Shown: in pieces, positions 11,610 to 18,563 of the stretch | Layout of the letters: each line of letters opens with the position of its first letter | How positions within the stretch are numbered: the first letter of the stretch is position 1 | Assembly (NCBI GenBank): GCA_025355995.1 | Contig: JANXYQ010000110.1 | Location: forward strand, 1 to 61,141 | Source of the DNA: Spirochaetaceae bacterium | GTDB taxonomy: Bacteria; Spirochaetota; Spirochaetia; Treponematales; Rectinemataceae | Reading direction: 5' to 3' | Length of the DNA: 61,141 nt | The notes under the pieces: model-generated | Told to the model about the DNA's origin: nothing | Databases searched by the model: none | What the model saw: only the letters and a program-made list of their open reading frames with translations | Position numbers and translations under genes: made by a program

Positions 11610-13625
11610 TCACTTGGTCGGGTCGTCGCCGTAGAGGTGCGACCGGCGGGCGAGGCGGGTTCCGTTCCACCAGCGCTTGATGAGGGGCACCGTCCAATAA
11701 TCGAGGCCGAAGGCCCTGCCCGCGCCGCCCATCATCGCGATAGCCGCGAAGATGAACCAGGCTTGATCCCACCTGAACATGCCCGAAAGAGTGAATACCA
11801 GGGTGAGGCCAATGCTGGCGACCGCCCCGAACCAGGTGAATAATCCCCCGAGGAAGACGAGCCCGATGCCGATCTCCGTGACCACGACCATTGATTGGAA
11901 GGCCTGGTAGGGGAGGTAGGAGAAGAGTCCGTCCATGAAGGTCTTCTTGAACCAATGCACGAGTCCGGCGTTCGGGTCGAGTATGGGCTTGGTCAAGTCC
12001 CATACGGCGTGGAAGGCCTCCGGGGCTGCCGCGGCGGGGGCGGCGCCCGCAGCGGAGGCAGCGCTGGTGGCCGCTACGGCTCCGGCGGCCGCGGTGGCCG
12101 CGCTCGTCGCAGCGACGGCTCCCGCCGCCCCCGTGGCAGCGCTGGTGGCCGCTACCGCCCCGGCCGCCGCGCCGGCGGCCTCCGTGGCCGCGCTCGTCGC
12201 GTCGGTCGCGGCCTTCACCCCGGCCTGCACGACGCCGGACGAGAACATCCATCCCGACTTGGAACCGGAGGAAAAGGCGAACCAGCCCTCTCCGATCTTG
12301 TTGATCCCTTCGAAGAGCCAGGAGACGCCGAGCCATAGCCGGAGCAGGAGCGGCCAGTACCCGCGGGTCTTGTGCGCGAAGAAGCCGCCGATGATGGATC
12401 GGCCGCTCTCCATATCGAGGAATTCGTGCTTGAAGTATTCCCAGACCTGGTTCAAGCCCGCGATCCTGAAGAGGTAGTACATGTTGATGAGGTGCTTCAT
12501 CGCCATGGCGACAAAGCCGCTCGTCCGCATCCCTCCTGCGTTGGCCACGCCGTACTTGCCGCCTATGGAGACCATGAAGCCGTGGTAGTTGGGCTTGAAC
12601 TCGTGGTGCTCGCCACCGTCGATGTCGGCGATGATGTTCTTAGCGGCGGCCTCCGCGCTGAAGTGCGCCGATTCCACGATCATGGCCATGGGCTTGCCGT
12701 CGACCATGAGGCCCGCGTTGTCCCCGACCGCGAAAGCGAAGGGATGCTTCTGCGACCGGAGGGCGGAGGTGGTCTCGATGCGATTGCGCTTCGCCATGGG
12801 CAAGCCGAGTCCGGCCCCGAATTCCGTCCCCTTGACGCCGCAGGTCCAGATGAAGGTCCGGGTCTCGACGGGATCCTTGTCCTTGAGGAGGACCTTGCCC
12901 GGCTCGGCCCCGATGATCGGCGTGCCGATCATGAGCTCGCAGCCATTCTTCCTCAGGTATTTCTCCGCCTTCGCGCGGAGGGGCTCCTCGAGCATCGGGA
13001 GGATGCTCGGCAGGGCCTCGATGACGACGACCCTCGCCTCGGAGGGATCGAGGTAATGCTTGCGGCACATGGCATCCCGGTACTCCAGGAGCTCGCCGGC
13101 CAGCTCTATGCCGGTAAAGCCCGCGCCGGCGACGACGAAGGTGAGGAGCCGCCGGCGCGCGGCGGGATCGGTCTCCTCGGCCGCCTTCTCGAAGATCACC
13201 TCGAGATGCTGCCTGATGCGGATGGCGTCGTCGAACGACCAGAGCGTGAAGCTGTTGTCCTGGACCCCCGGCGTCCCGAAGAATTCGGGCTGTGCCCCGG
13301 TGCCTATCACGATGTAATCGAAATGGTATTCTCGCGAACGGGAGCGCGCGACCTTCGCCTCGAAATCGACTTTGTCGATCGAGTCCACCACGCACTCGAT
13401 CCTCTTGGCCCCGAATATCTTGCGGAAGGAGACCTGGACGGACTCGGGATCGGCGCGCCATCCGGCTACTTCGTGAAGTTCGGTCATGAGCGTATGGAAG
13501 GGTTTCTTGTCGACGAGGGTGATTTCTATGTCGTCTCGCTTCCGGAAGCGCTTTTCGAGGATTTTACCCGCCCAGACGCCGCCATAGCCGCCTCCGAGGA
13601 TGAGGATGCGCTTTTTTTCTCCCAT
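11610..13625 (-). CDS. Type II NADH dehydrogenase fused to a DoxX-like membrane domain
   Basis: 671 residues. Residues 1-430 are an NDH-2 type FAD/NAD oxidoreductase. The FAD motif is ILGGGYGGVWAG near 9-20, the NADH-binding Rossmann motif is VVAGAGFTGIELAGEL near 165-180, and VGDNAGLM lies near 310. It transfers electrons from NADH to quinone without proton pumping. From about 430 the chain becomes a multi-span membrane domain (YWPLLLRLWLGVSWLFEG, then several more segments) resembling DoxX. An Ala-rich linker (about 468-538) with 13-residue repeats splits this domain after its first segment. AGGAG precedes the ATG. The fusion would anchor the normally peripheral enzyme in the membrane. The downstream prenyl synthase fits quinone use. 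Confidence 0.85.
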   Translation of the reverse strand: MGEKKRILILGGGYGGVWAGKILEKRFRKRDDIEITLVDKKPFHTLMTELHEVAGWRADPESVQVSFRKIFGAKRIECVVDSIDKVDFEAKVARSRSREYHFDYIVIGTGAQPEFFGTPGVQDNSFTLWSFDDAIRIRQHLEVIFEKAAEETDPAARRRLLTFVVAGAGFTGIELAGELLEYRDAMCRKHYLDPSEARVVVIEALPSILPMLEEPLRAKAEKYLRKNGCELMIGTPIIGAEPGKVLLKDKDPVETRTFIWTCGVKGTEFGAGLGLPMAKRNRIETTSALRSQKHPFAFAVGDNAGLMVDGKPMAMIVESAHFSAEAAAKNIIADIDGGEHHEFKPNYHGFMVSIGGKYGVANAGGMRTSGFVAMAMKHLINMYYLFRIAGLNQVWEYFKHEFLDMESGRSIIGGFFAHKTRGYWPLLLRLWLGVSWLFEGINKIGEGWFAFSSGSKSGWMFSSGVVQAGVKAATDATSAATEAAGAAAGAVAATSAATGAAGAVAATSAATAAAGAVAATSAASAAGAAPAAAAPEAFHAVWDLTKPILDPNAGLVHWFKKTFMDGLFSYLPYQAFQSMVVVTEIGIGLVFLGGLFTWFGAVASIGLTLVFTLSGMFRWDQAWFIFAAIAMMGGAGRAFGLDYWTVPLIKRWWNGTRLARRSHLYGDDPTK
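12054..12164 (-). repeat. 39-bp tandem repeat coding for Ala-rich linker
   Basis: Inside the NADH dehydrogenase fusion gene, three near-identical units encode AGAVAATSAA(T/S) at a 13-residue (39-base) period, with similar weaker units on both sides. The DNA repeats are diverged at third positions. Copy number is therefore probably not freely slipping, although assembly from short reads could miscount it. Confidence 0.7.
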
Positions 13626-13891: not shown

Positions 13892-15889
13892 ATGGATTTT
13901 CAACGATTCGGCATCGACCCTCGGTTGGCCCAGGCCGCCGAGGGCCTTCCGACCAATTTTTTCTTCTATGAGAAGATGCTCGCCCACGTCGTCGAAGCGC
14001 AGGAGAATGTCTGCGTGAAGATAGCCCTCGACGAGGGCCGGGAGGAAGTCCTGCTGTTGCCCGCCCTCCAGTGGCTGCTGTCCGGGGAGGCTCGAAAGGC
14101 CCTCGTCGTCGTCCCCGATGTCGAGGGGGTCGACCGCTGCGCCTCGGCCATCGGGAACCTGGGCTCGGCCGCGGGGATAAGCGTCTGCCGCGTCACGCGG
14201 GACGAAGCCGCCGATCCCGCGATCCGCCTCGACGGCGACCCCTCCTCCTCCTCCGTCCTCCTCGGCATGCTCGAGGACCTGCTGGCCATCCCGGAGCTCG
14301 ACTTGCGCGGCTACGGCTTCCTCGTCGTGGACGGCGTCGATCGCCTTAGCGACATCCCCACGGACGCGATCCGGAAATTCAGCGCATCGCTGCTCCCCTC
14401 CTGGGAGAGGCGCAGCGTGCTCGCCTGCGCGAGGTTCTCGGTGAAGGCCAAGAACCTCGCCTGGGACCTAGCCGACAACCCCACCGAGATAAGCATCGAG
14501 GGCGAGGTGGCCAAGGCCCAGAGCGTCCTCAAGGAAACCTGGAGCGTCCCTGTCGATTCCAAGCTCAAGTTCCTCCTTGGCCTCCTCGAACGCGAGAAGC
14601 CCTCTCGGCTCTGCGTCTTCTGCAATCTCAAGGATACGGCGAGCGATGTGTGCCGCCGCTTGGCCGCGAATGGCGTCCGCACCGATTCCATCCTCGGCGG
14701 CCTCCTGCCCGAGCGCAAATTCGCCCTCGTCGAGAAATTCAGGGCGGGCGACTCAACCTGCCTCCTCCTAACCGACGAGGGCGCCGACGGCCTGACCCCG
14801 GGCGTCTTCCCCCTGATCGTAAACTACGATATACCTCTCGAGCCCGAGCTCTTCGTGAAGCGGCTCGAGATGCTCGATCGCTCGGACCCCGGAGCCAAGG
14901 TCGTCAGTATCGCCTGCGACCGCTACATATACGGGCTGCCCGCGGTCGAGCAGTACATCGACGCCAAGCTCGACGCCGTGCCCGCGGAGCCTTCGATGCT
15001 CGCGGCGGTCGACAGGAGCGAGGGCATGGCGTCCGACCGGAGGCCGAAGGGCGACTCCTATCCCCGGGACGCCCGGAGAGGCCAACCGCAGCGTCGAGAA
15101 TCGAGCGCGCGAGACGGGCGCCAACGCGAGGCCTATCCGCGCGACTCGTATCCGCGCGAGGGCAGGAGCCCGGATATCCGCAAGAGCATCTCCGAGGCGA
15201 CCGGCGGCGCCCTCGACATGAGCGGGGCCCTTCCCCCGGACCAGGGCAATTCCCGGCCGGCCTCGGCGCGCCCGGCGCAGGGCAAGAATACCTCACGCGG
15301 AGAGCCGCGGCGAGGCGGCCAGGAGAGCCGAGGCCAAGGAAGCTCGGGAGGCCGTCCCTCGGGCAATAAGGAAGGGCGGCGAGACGACGCGCGCCGCGTA
15401 GGCGGGAAGCCTGCCCAGCAGCGGGCGGCGGATCCCCGGCAGCAGGGCTCGAGGCCTCAGGCAGGCAGGCCCCCCGCGGGGAAGCCCGTCCAGGCCAAGC
15501 CGGGGAATCCCTACGAGCTTCCAATGGAAGAGCGTATGAAGATCTACCGTGAGAAGTACGGCCGCAATCTCGGCGAGGAAAAAGCCGGCGGCGGCCGAGG
15601 CGGCCCCCGGAATGAGCAGAAGGGCGGCCAGCGAGGGCCGAAGGCGCAGCGCGGCGGTCAGCCAGGCACCGCCCAACAGGGCGCCCAGCAGGGCGGCCCC
15701 AAGCGGCAGCCCAGCCAACGCGGACCCGGGCAGGGCCAACAGAATCAGAGGAAGCAGCAGCCGCAAGAGCAGCGCCCTCCCCGTCCCCAGGCGCCTCGAG
15801 CCCCGCAGAAACCGCAGGCTGAACCCGCTCGGAAGCCGGAGGGAGTCATGGGACGGCTGCTCGGCGCCTTCAGGAAGAAGAAAAGCTAG
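13892..15889 (+). CDS. Degenerate DEAD-box helicase-like protein with R/G/Q-rich tail
   Basis: 665 residues. Residues 1-370 follow the two-RecA layout of DEAD-box RNA helicases. There is a Q-motif-like start (FQRFGIDPRLAQAAE), strand ALVVVPDVEGVDR at motif Ia, and GFLVVDGVDRL where DEAD is expected. LCVFCNLKDTASDVCRRL lies at motif IV and CLLLTDEGADGLT at motif V. The Walker A GKT and the motif VI HRxGRxGR are absent, so ATP hydrolysis is unlikely. From about 375 to 640 the tail is disordered and rich in Arg, Gly, Gln and Pro, as in RNA-binding tails, and it ends in a basic GRLLGAFRKKKS. The best guess is a non-catalytic RNA-binding scaffold. It stands alone between divergent ndh and glgP. 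Confidence 0.7.
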   Translation: MDFQRFGIDPRLAQAAEGLPTNFFFYEKMLAHVVEAQENVCVKIALDEGREEVLLLPALQWLLSGEARKALVVVPDVEGVDRCASAIGNLGSAAGISVCRVTRDEAADPAIRLDGDPSSSSVLLGMLEDLLAIPELDLRGYGFLVVDGVDRLSDIPTDAIRKFSASLLPSWERRSVLACARFSVKAKNLAWDLADNPTEISIEGEVAKAQSVLKETWSVPVDSKLKFLLGLLEREKPSRLCVFCNLKDTASDVCRRLAANGVRTDSILGGLLPERKFALVEKFRAGDSTCLLLTDEGADGLTPGVFPLIVNYDIPLEPELFVKRLEMLDRSDPGAKVVSIACDRYIYGLPAVEQYIDAKLDAVPAEPSMLAAVDRSEGMASDRRPKGDSYPRDARRGQPQRRESSARDGRQREAYPRDSYPREGRSPDIRKSISEATGGALDMSGALPPDQGNSRPASARPAQGKNTSRGEPRRGGQESRGQGSSGGRPSGNKEGRRDDARRVGGKPAQQRAADPRQQGSRPQAGRPPAGKPVQAKPGNPYELPMEERMKIYREKYGRNLGEEKAGGGRGGPRNEQKGGQRGPKAQRGGQPGTAQQGAQQGGPKRQPSQRGPGQGQQNQRKQQPQEQRPPRPQAPRAPQKPQAEPARKPEGVMGRLLGAFRKKKS

Positions 15890-16025: not shown

Positions 16026-18563
16026 ATGAAAATCATCTCCCATACCGTCAAGCCGAAGATCCCCGCGGCGCTCTCCTCCCTCGAGGAAATGGCCCACAAT
16101 CTCTGGCTCTCGTGGAACTTCGAAGCGATAACGCTTTTCATCCGGCTCGACTACGATGTTTGGCTTCAATCGAACCAGAATCCAGCGATGATGCTCGGGA
16201 TGGTCTCCCAGGATCGCTATGACGAGCTCGCCCAGGATGATTCCTATATCGCCGCCCTCAAGATGGTAGAGGAGAAATTCGAGCGCTACAAGAACGGCGA
16301 AACGTGGTACAAGGGCCAGCATGACGGGATCGTCGCCTACTTCTCGATGGAATACGGGCTGGACGTCTCGCTCCCGACCTACTCGGGGGGGCTCGGCATT
16401 CTCTCCGGCGACCACATGAAGGCCTCGAGCGACATGGGTCTTCCCTTGGTGGGCGTAGGCCTGCTTTACAGGCAGGGCTACTTCAAACAGTACCTCAACC
16501 CAGACGGATTCCAGCAGGAATCCTACCCGGAGAACGACTGGTACAACATGCCCGTGCATCGCTGCCTCGACGCCAAGGGCCAGCCCATCCTGATAGCCGT
16601 GGAGATGGCGGATAGGACGGTGGCCGCGCAGATATGGGAGGTCACGGTCGGCCGAGCCTCCCTCTTCCTGCTGGATACGAATATCGAGGAGAACGCTCCC
16701 GAGGAGCGGGCTGTGACCGCGGCCCTCTACGGCGGCGACGCCGAGACCCGCATCCGCCAGGAGATACTCTTAGGCGTGGGCGGCATCCGCGCGTTGCGCG
16801 CCCTCGGGGTGGACGTGGCCGTCACGCACATGAACGAGGGGCACTCGGCTTTCCTAGCGCTCGAGCGCATCCGCGAGGCGATGATCGAGCGCTCGTTCTC
16901 CTTCTCCGAGGCCGTTCAGATGATCTGGCCGACGAATATATTCACGACCCATACGCCGGTGCCAGCCGGCAACGAGCGCTTCGGGATCGAGCTCATGGAG
17001 AAGTACTTCCGGCCCTGGGCGCAGCAGCTCGGCCTCGAGTGGCAGGATTTCCTGGCCCTTGGCCGCGAGAAACCTGAGGATCAGAGCGAGCGCTTCTGCA
17101 TGACCGTATTCGCCCTCAAGCTCTCCGCTTACGCCAACGGCGTCGCCGAGCTCCATGGGCTCGTGTCCCGCAACATGTGGGCCGGCCTCTGGCCCTCCCT
17201 CCCGCTCGACGAGGTTCCCATAACCTCGATCACCAACGGGGTCCACCCGCGCACCTGGGTCTCGCACAACATGCTCGAGCTCCTCGACCGCTATTTCGGC
17301 CCGCGCTTCTACGAGGAGCCGGCCAACCTCGACATGTGGGACCGCCTCGACCGCATCTCCGACGAGGAGCTGTGGCGCACCCACGAGCGCCGCCGCGAAA
17401 GGCTCGTCGTCTTCGCGCGCGACCGGCTCAAGCGCGCGATGAAGCGCGCCGGCGCCTCGGAGGGGCTGCTGCACCGGGCAGAGGACGTCCTCTCCCCCTA
17501 CGCCATCACTATATCCTTCGCGAGGCGCTTCGCGACCTACAAGCGGGGGAATCTCCTCCTGCGCGACCCCGAACGCCTCCTCCGCCTGATAAACGACAAG
17601 GAGAGGCCCGTGCAGATCATCTTCGCGGGCAAGGCCCATCCCCACGACCTTCCCGGCAAGGAGATCATCAAGGAGCTCGTACACTTCTCGAGGCGGGAGG
17701 AAGTGCAGAGTCGCATCATCTTCCTCGAGGACTACGACATGACGATGGCCCGCTACCTGACCTCGGGCTCCGACGTGTGGCTCAATACCCCTCGCCGGCC
17801 CCTCGAGGCCTCGGGCACCAGCGGCATGAAGGCGGGCGTGAACGGCGTCCTCAATTGCTCCATCCTCGACGGATGGTGGGCCGAGGGCTACGGGCCCGAG
17901 GTGGGCTGGGCGATCGGCTCGGGCGAGGAATACCAGGACGAGGAGCTCCAGGACCGGGTCGAGAGCGAGGCCCTGTACGACCTCCTCGAGCACGAGATAG
18001 TCCCCATGTTCTACCAGCGAGGGCGAGACGGCCTGCCCCGCGAGTGGATCAAGCGCATGAAGGCCTCGATGAAGTCGGTGGGCCAGCGCTTCTCCACGCA
18101 CCGCATGCTCAAGGAATATTCCGAGAACTTCTATTTCCCCGCCCTGGACAACGGGAGGCGCCTCGCGGCCGAGAACTACGCCCCCGCGAAGGAGCTGGCC
18201 GCCTACCTCGCGAAGGCGCGCAAGGCCTGGCCGGCCATCTCGATCTCGGAGCTGCGCGCCGACGCCAAGCCGATCATGGAGCGGGGCGACATGGTCACGG
18301 TGACCGCCATAGTCGATCTAGGCGGGCTCGAGCCATCCGAAGCGGCCGTCGAGCTCTACCACGGCTCGGTGACGATACAGGACGGCATCACCTGCGCCAC
18401 GCGCAACGAGATGACCGCCGCGGAGCGCAGGGGCAAGGCTTGGGAATACAGGGTGAAAGTGACCTGCGATAGGACGGGCCAGCACGGCTATTCCGTGCGC
18501 GTGATGCCGAAGCACCCCGCGCTGGTCAGCCCTTACGTCCCGGGACTGATACGCTGGGCCTGA
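16026..18563 (+). CDS. glgP: Alpha-glucan (glycogen) phosphorylase, short divergent type
   Basis: 845 residues. The N-terminus has the short-type signature LEEMAHNLWLSWNFEA, followed by VAYFSMEYGLDVSLPTYSGG and the conserved GDHMKASSDMGLPLVGVGLL. The pyridoxal-phosphate lysine lies in EASGTSGMKAGVNGVLN near residue 600. The enzyme releases glucose 1-phosphate from storage glucan, or from imported maltodextrin, using phosphate. It belongs to the 'more divergent' GT35 group, which lacks the long N-terminal allosteric region of the classical E. coli/muscle enzymes. It is monocistronic, with its own promoter and a strong terminator. No other glycogen genes are adjacent. Confidence 0.94.
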   Translation: MKIISHTVKPKIPAALSSLEEMAHNLWLSWNFEAITLFIRLDYDVWLQSNQNPAMMLGMVSQDRYDELAQDDSYIAALKMVEEKFERYKNGETWYKGQHDGIVAYFSMEYGLDVSLPTYSGGLGILSGDHMKASSDMGLPLVGVGLLYRQGYFKQYLNPDGFQQESYPENDWYNMPVHRCLDAKGQPILIAVEMADRTVAAQIWEVTVGRASLFLLDTNIEENAPEERAVTAALYGGDAETRIRQEILLGVGGIRALRALGVDVAVTHMNEGHSAFLALERIREAMIERSFSFSEAVQMIWPTNIFTTHTPVPAGNERFGIELMEKYFRPWAQQLGLEWQDFLALGREKPEDQSERFCMTVFALKLSAYANGVAELHGLVSRNMWAGLWPSLPLDEVPITSITNGVHPRTWVSHNMLELLDRYFGPRFYEEPANLDMWDRLDRISDEELWRTHERRRERLVVFARDRLKRAMKRAGASEGLLHRAEDVLSPYAITISFARRFATYKRGNLLLRDPERLLRLINDKERPVQIIFAGKAHPHDLPGKEIIKELVHFSRREEVQSRIIFLEDYDMTMARYLTSGSDVWLNTPRRPLEASGTSGMKAGVNGVLNCSILDGWWAEGYGPEVGWAIGSGEEYQDEELQDRVESEALYDLLEHEIVPMFYQRGRDGLPREWIKRMKASMKSVGQRFSTHRMLKEYSENFYFPALDNGRRLAAENYAPAKELAAYLAKARKAWPAISISELRADAKPIMERGDMVTVTAIVDLGGLEPSEAAVELYHGSVTIQDGITCATRNEMTAAERRGKAWEYRVKVTCDRTGQHGYSVRVMPKHPALVSPYVPGLIRWA

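Follow-up and report, generated by a model that had tools for sequence, protein, structure and literature searches.

The window, which is the whole 61,141 bp stretch of DNA analysed here, encodes a 665-amino-acid protein (13892–15889, forward strand) that resembles DEAD-box RNA helicases in predicted fold but has lost their catalytic motifs. This raises the question of whether the gene is a helicase copy in decay or a pseudohelicase that is maintained for a non-catalytic role. The original prediction favoured a conserved inactive helicase that serves as an RNA scaffold. The features of the locus are listed in Table 1.

Table 1. Features of the pseudohelicase gene and its conserved neighbours (positions in the window)
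Feature	Position	Strand	Basis or remark
ndh-type NADH dehydrogenase, divergent conserved neighbour	11610..13625	-	Name from sequence character
Pseudohelicase gene, 665 aa	13892..15889	+	ORF; uninterrupted orthologue frames in many genomes
Degenerate RecA1 domain, residues 1-205	13892..14506	+	AF2 model, alignment
Former Walker A region, ENVCVKIALDEGREEV, GTGKT to DEGRE	14003..14050	+	Motif alignment
Former DEAD motif, FLVVDGVDRL, DEAD to DGVD	14318..14347	+	Motif alignment
Former motif III (SAT), VLACARFS, SAT to CAR	14417..14440	+	Motif alignment
RecA2 domain, residues 213-365	14528..14986	+	Pfam Helicase_C (residues 224-324), AF2, alignment
Retained motif IV, LCVFCNLKD	14609..14635	+	Cys-Asn-Leu in 28/28
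Partly retained motif V, LLLTDEGADGLT	14762..14797	+	T and D in 21/28
Former motif VI, FVKRLEMLDRSD, HRIGRTARAG to KRLEMLDRSD	14852..14887	+	Motif alignment
Post-core D-x-S-x-G motif, SMLAAVDRSEGM	14993..15028	+	Common to intact paralogue (EDKSxGM)
R/G/Q/P-rich tail, net +35	15017..15886	+	Predicted disordered except three islands
Tail motif SPDIRKSISEATGG	15167..15208	+	Conserved in part of clade; residues 429-437 helical, pLDDT about 67
Tail motif NPYELPMEERMKIYREKYG	15506..15562	+	Common to pseudo and intact paralogues; AF2 block pLDDT 86
C-terminal amphipathic helix GVMGRLLGAFRKKK	15842..15883	+	Common to intact paralogues; possible membrane-targeting helix
Glycogen-phosphorylase-like gene (glgP), conserved downstream neighbour	16026..18563	+	Name from sequence character

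Fold and catalytic motifs

At the amino acid sequence level, the protein matches DEAD-box proteins of known structure in the PDB with E values down to 1.4e-14, far above chance. The NCBIfam RhlB model is matched at E 1.6e-30 with 106.2 bits, which does not reach its curated cut-off of 588. Pfam detects Helicase_C (E 1.1e-9) but gives no DEAD match in the RecA1 domain, and the alignment likewise has RecA2 as the more conserved of the two domains. At the structural level, an AlphaFold2 model of residues 1–395, built with 17 sequences, displays a complete two-RecA fold with a core pLDDT of 89. The nearest solved structures in a Foldseek search are CshA (E 4.6e-21), Hera, DbpA and DDX6, and VIA-align superposes the core on DDX3X, DDX6 and eIF4A at Z scores of 27–28 over 340–360 residues. 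The rmsd across both domains is high in these matches, which is probably due to the arrangement of the domains. Thus, the model and the PDB matches predict the DEAD-box two-RecA arrangement, and the layout proposed originally is kept.

Sequence motifs were compared between 28 pseudohelicases and 30 intact paralogues. The Q motif Gln, the Lys and the Thr of Walker A and the second Arg of motif VI are present in all 30 intact proteins and in none of the 28 pseudohelicases. The catalytic Glu of DEAD and the Thr of SAT are each found in 1/28, versus 30/30 in the intact group. The losses of Walker A, DEAD and motif VI that had been read from the window are therefore real. They extend further in the window protein, which is also without the Q motif and motifs Ia, GG, Ib and III; it still has parts of motif IV (FCN) and motif V (TD) and the first Arg of motif VI. 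Accordingly, neither the window protein nor any part of its clade carries the DEAD-box signature of Q motif, Walker A GKT, DEAD, SAT and HRxGRxGR, and the clade combines a helicase fold with a conserved loss of catalytic residues, as a pseudohelicase does. The pseudohelicase core is also more acidic than that of the intact paralogue (mean −10.6 versus −6.3), a point against RNA binding by the core itself.

Since the nucleotide site is destroyed, the ATP-driven opening and closing of the core that unwinds RNA would be impossible, as far as the sequence tells, and the protein may be a static platform. It is conceivable, if improbable, that a non-canonical nucleotide- or RNA-dependent activity is kept, in which a conserved Arg that replaces the Walker Lys would form a new binding site. 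With this Arg in 24/28 pseudohelicases, the position remains under constraint; all 28 also have the first Arg of motif VI, and 10/28 the third. Against such an activity, the Gln of the Q motif, the Walker Thr, the DEAD Glu and the second Arg of motif VI are gone in essentially the whole clade. RNA-contacting residues of RecA1 are mostly lost as well (Ia Arg in 3/28, Ib Arg in 0/28, the second Gly of GG in 2/28), and any RNA binding would therefore take place mainly via the tail.

Origin, distribution and maintenance

Relatives were sought in 59 related genomes and then in 294 genomes of the order, and in both searches they fall into two groups, intact helicases and degenerate ones. All 28 pseudohelicases form one clade, with support of 100/100 in two trees (18 and 28 pseudohelicase sequences), and none of the 200 bootstrap trees splits it. 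A long stem (1.4–1.6) leads to this clade, which neighbours the intact proteins of families f1 and f4 and splits internally along the same family lines; because the branches are long, its monophyly is more secure than its precise sister position. The simplest reading of the trees is that one duplication and one loss of the ATPase motifs preceded the f1/f4 split. Several independent losses were considered and are not needed, given the single clade in every bootstrap tree and the common locus. When the whole phylum was searched with a strict threshold, the clade turned up only in f1 and f4, which belong to the same spirochaete order; members as divergent as that of genome G032 score below this threshold, however, and the clade may have gone unnoticed elsewhere.

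Many genomes, that of the window included, carry both paralogues. Nine genomes that are more than 90% complete have only the dead one (G012, G013, G014, G019, G020, G021, G022, G023 and G025). No intact orthologue was found in these nine: their best matches are ∼33–41% identical, which is the level of other DEAD-box groups, whereas true orthologues reach 55% or more. The nine genomes still have other DEAD-box proteins. The intact paralogue occurs alone in G010, G018, other families and part of f4. Draft genomes weaken each single absence, but not the overall pattern. Orthologues of genus g12 (L077, L083, L084, L085, L088, L089 and L090) are only ∼27% identical, and the stem that leads to them measures 1.9 changes per column; they keep the tail motif despite their fast evolution, and the intact paralogue was not found in that branch.

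That the window gene is a decaying pseudogene is hardly tenable. The catalytic motifs are gone and the gene evolves faster than its intact paralogue, but its frames are full-length and free of stops in dozens of genomes, 26 core positions are invariant across 17 sequences, and a tail motif, described below, is present in every member whose tail is complete. dN/dS was computed on the core for three pseudohelicase genome pairs and two intact pairs. Values for the pseudohelicase are 0.27 (G000/G001), 0.26 (G048/G040) and 0.14 (G022/G020); those for the intact paralogue are 0.14 (G000/G001) and 0.065 (G048/G040). The pseudohelicase is under purifying selection, which is relaxed relative to the active enzyme but clearly present, and together with the conserved locus these values indicate that the gene is maintained. 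A decayed copy is further ruled out by the orthologues with the same losses: homologues with intact motifs do exist, but they make up a separate paralogous clade, and all 28 orthologues share the loss. The designation as a conserved inactive helicase thus stands at the sequence level, on the basis of one clade, a common catalytic loss, purifying selection and a conserved locus.

The pseudohelicase gene lies near ndh and/or glgP in all 15 genomes whose flanks were compared, and near both in nine. This common locus extends to orthologues that are only 27–30% identical. A scan of the pseudohelicase region for promoters and terminators gave nothing informative. The ndh-type gene has an Ala/Thr-rich low-complexity insert with GAVAATSAAT repeats between its enzyme part and its C-terminal membrane part. 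Perhaps the role of the pseudohelicase is tied to a neighbour, e.g. post-transcriptional control of glycogen phosphorylase, as glgP is nearby and co-oriented in 13/15 genomes. This is very improbable, however: glgP is not nearby in G009 and G060, the two genes are present but unlinked in G035 and G043, many genomes have glgP and no pseudohelicase gene, and the whole ispA–ndh–glgP block simply keeps a stable gene order.

The C-terminal tail and possible partners

The tail had been described as R/G/Q-rich and 260 residues long. The composition is borne out (15.5% R, 16.2% G, 11.7% Q and 12.4% P), but the length is about 290 residues. In the full-length model the tail is mostly below pLDDT 50, apart from the block that contains the motif MEERMKxYREKYG and two weaker islands, the IRKSISEATGG motif and the C-terminal helix. 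MEERMKxYREKYG is found in every pseudohelicase examined that has a complete tail. In a search of 11 genomes, its profile matches only the two paralogues; a general docking motif was considered and rejected, as no other protein carries it there. In the window's genome the profile matches the pseudohelicase only. The intact paralogue of that genome (L035, G000:C7:53852-) has lost the motif, which nearly all other intact copies have kept. An intact helicase of family f2 (L023, G030:C88) has a tail segment, IAQATGG, that resembles the pseudohelicase IRKSIAEATGG, and this suggests that the latter motif may be older than the duplication.

The amphipathic pattern of the C-terminal helix is conserved, and its hydrophobic moment exceeds that of shuffled sequences in many members, but not in all, when tested sequence by sequence. 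A Pfam FtsA_C match in the window protein is weak (E=1 only). Helices of this kind anchor MinD and FtsA to the membrane (PMC6158289), and by analogy the helix possibly binds the membrane; it could bind a protein instead.

RNase E/G was not detected with TIGR00757 in five genomes, including that of the window, where controls were positive, and RNase Y was found in the genomes searched. The analogy with RhlB and RNase E therefore does not apply, and the RhlB-type comparison has to be amended also in that the closest intact relative is the spirochaete paralogue and not proteobacterial RhlB. Machinery around the membrane-bound RNase Y is the likelier RNA-decay setting for a partner. In the genome of the window, the gene for RNase Y (L135, G000:C41:9000-12500, reverse strand; match G000:C41:10018-11514) has one in-frame TAG within an otherwise intact frame (..ILITTI*RIVTEVTT..), possibly a draft assembly error or a real lesion.

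Taken at the sequence level, these properties suggest that the protein is probably a non-catalytic platform for RNA or protein, and possibly membrane-associated. In such a platform, RNA would be held by the basic R/G-rich tail, and the amphipathic helix would recruit the protein to the membrane. Docking onto the partner of the active paralogue would involve the RecA2 surface together with MEERMKxYREKYG, the most plausible partner being the membrane-bound machinery for RNA decay around RNase Y or some other ribonucleoprotein. In its general form, an ancient ATPase-dead duplicate of a CshA/RhlB-like helicase that acts as a platform with the partner site of the active enzyme, this reading appears somewhat favoured on balance. 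The more specific proposal is tentative and rather doubtful: the platform would be tethered to the membrane, work without ATP and belong to an RNA-decay machine of the RNase Y type, having arisen by duplication, retained the docking motifs of the active enzyme and, in some lineages, outlived it. The RNA scaffold of a degradation complex or condensate envisaged originally stays plausible by analogy, but the conserved neighbours are metabolic genes and not RNA-decay genes, which argues against a role in RNA decay.

The pseudohelicase might also regulate its active sister, by competing for, or co-assembling at, a docking site that both reach through MEERMKxYREKYG and the C-terminal helix. The two paralogues have in common a tail motif that is otherwise unique, and they coexist in the window's genome and many others. 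We consider this unlikely. The persistence of the dead paralogue in nine near-complete genomes with no intact orthologue detected argues against a purely regulatory role, and the intact copy in the window's genome is without the common motif.

Relation to known helicases and pseudohelicases

The intact spirochaete CshA/RhlB-like helicase (L035) belongs to the sister clade and is similar to the pseudohelicase in core fold, EDKSxGM and the C-terminal amphipathic helix; most members of that clade also have the tail motif, as MEERMKxYKEKYG. The intact paralogue differs in that it has all ATPase and RNA motifs, a dN/dS that is 2–4 times lower, and a different locus. RhlB and CshA, the degradosome helicases, are the best named matches in sequence and structure and have a basic C-terminal tail in common with the spirochaete protein. 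They are active enzymes, however, and the scaffold of RhlB is RNase E.

Utp25/Def, of the SSU processome, is an essential eukaryotic DEAD-box pseudohelicase (PMC9539457). As with the spirochaete protein, a two-RecA DEAD-box fold with vestigial motifs and a long disordered extension has been maintained. Utp25/Def differs in being eukaryotic, in functioning in ribosome assembly and in having its extension at the N-terminus, whereas that of the spirochaete protein is C-terminal; also, the function of Utp25/Def has been tested by mutation. The Utp25 authors count it as the second proposed pseudohelicase, after PriA, which is of the DNA type (PMC9539457). PriA of Deinococcus radiodurans, as cited there, is also a conserved bacterial helicase fold without ATPase or helicase function (PMC4504706, via PMC9539457); it is described as a DNA replication-restart protein, and is neither a DEAD-box protein nor one that works on RNA. 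No bacterial DEAD-box pseudohelicase was found in the literature searched, which is not all of the literature.

Pseudohelicases are rare in the literature, and the present clade adds dozens of sequences with a known active sister and a placed duplication. There are natural genomes that have both paralogues, one of them or neither. The clade may thus allow a scaffold role of the DEAD-box fold to be tested without ATP turnover, and the partner of the new tail motif to be found.
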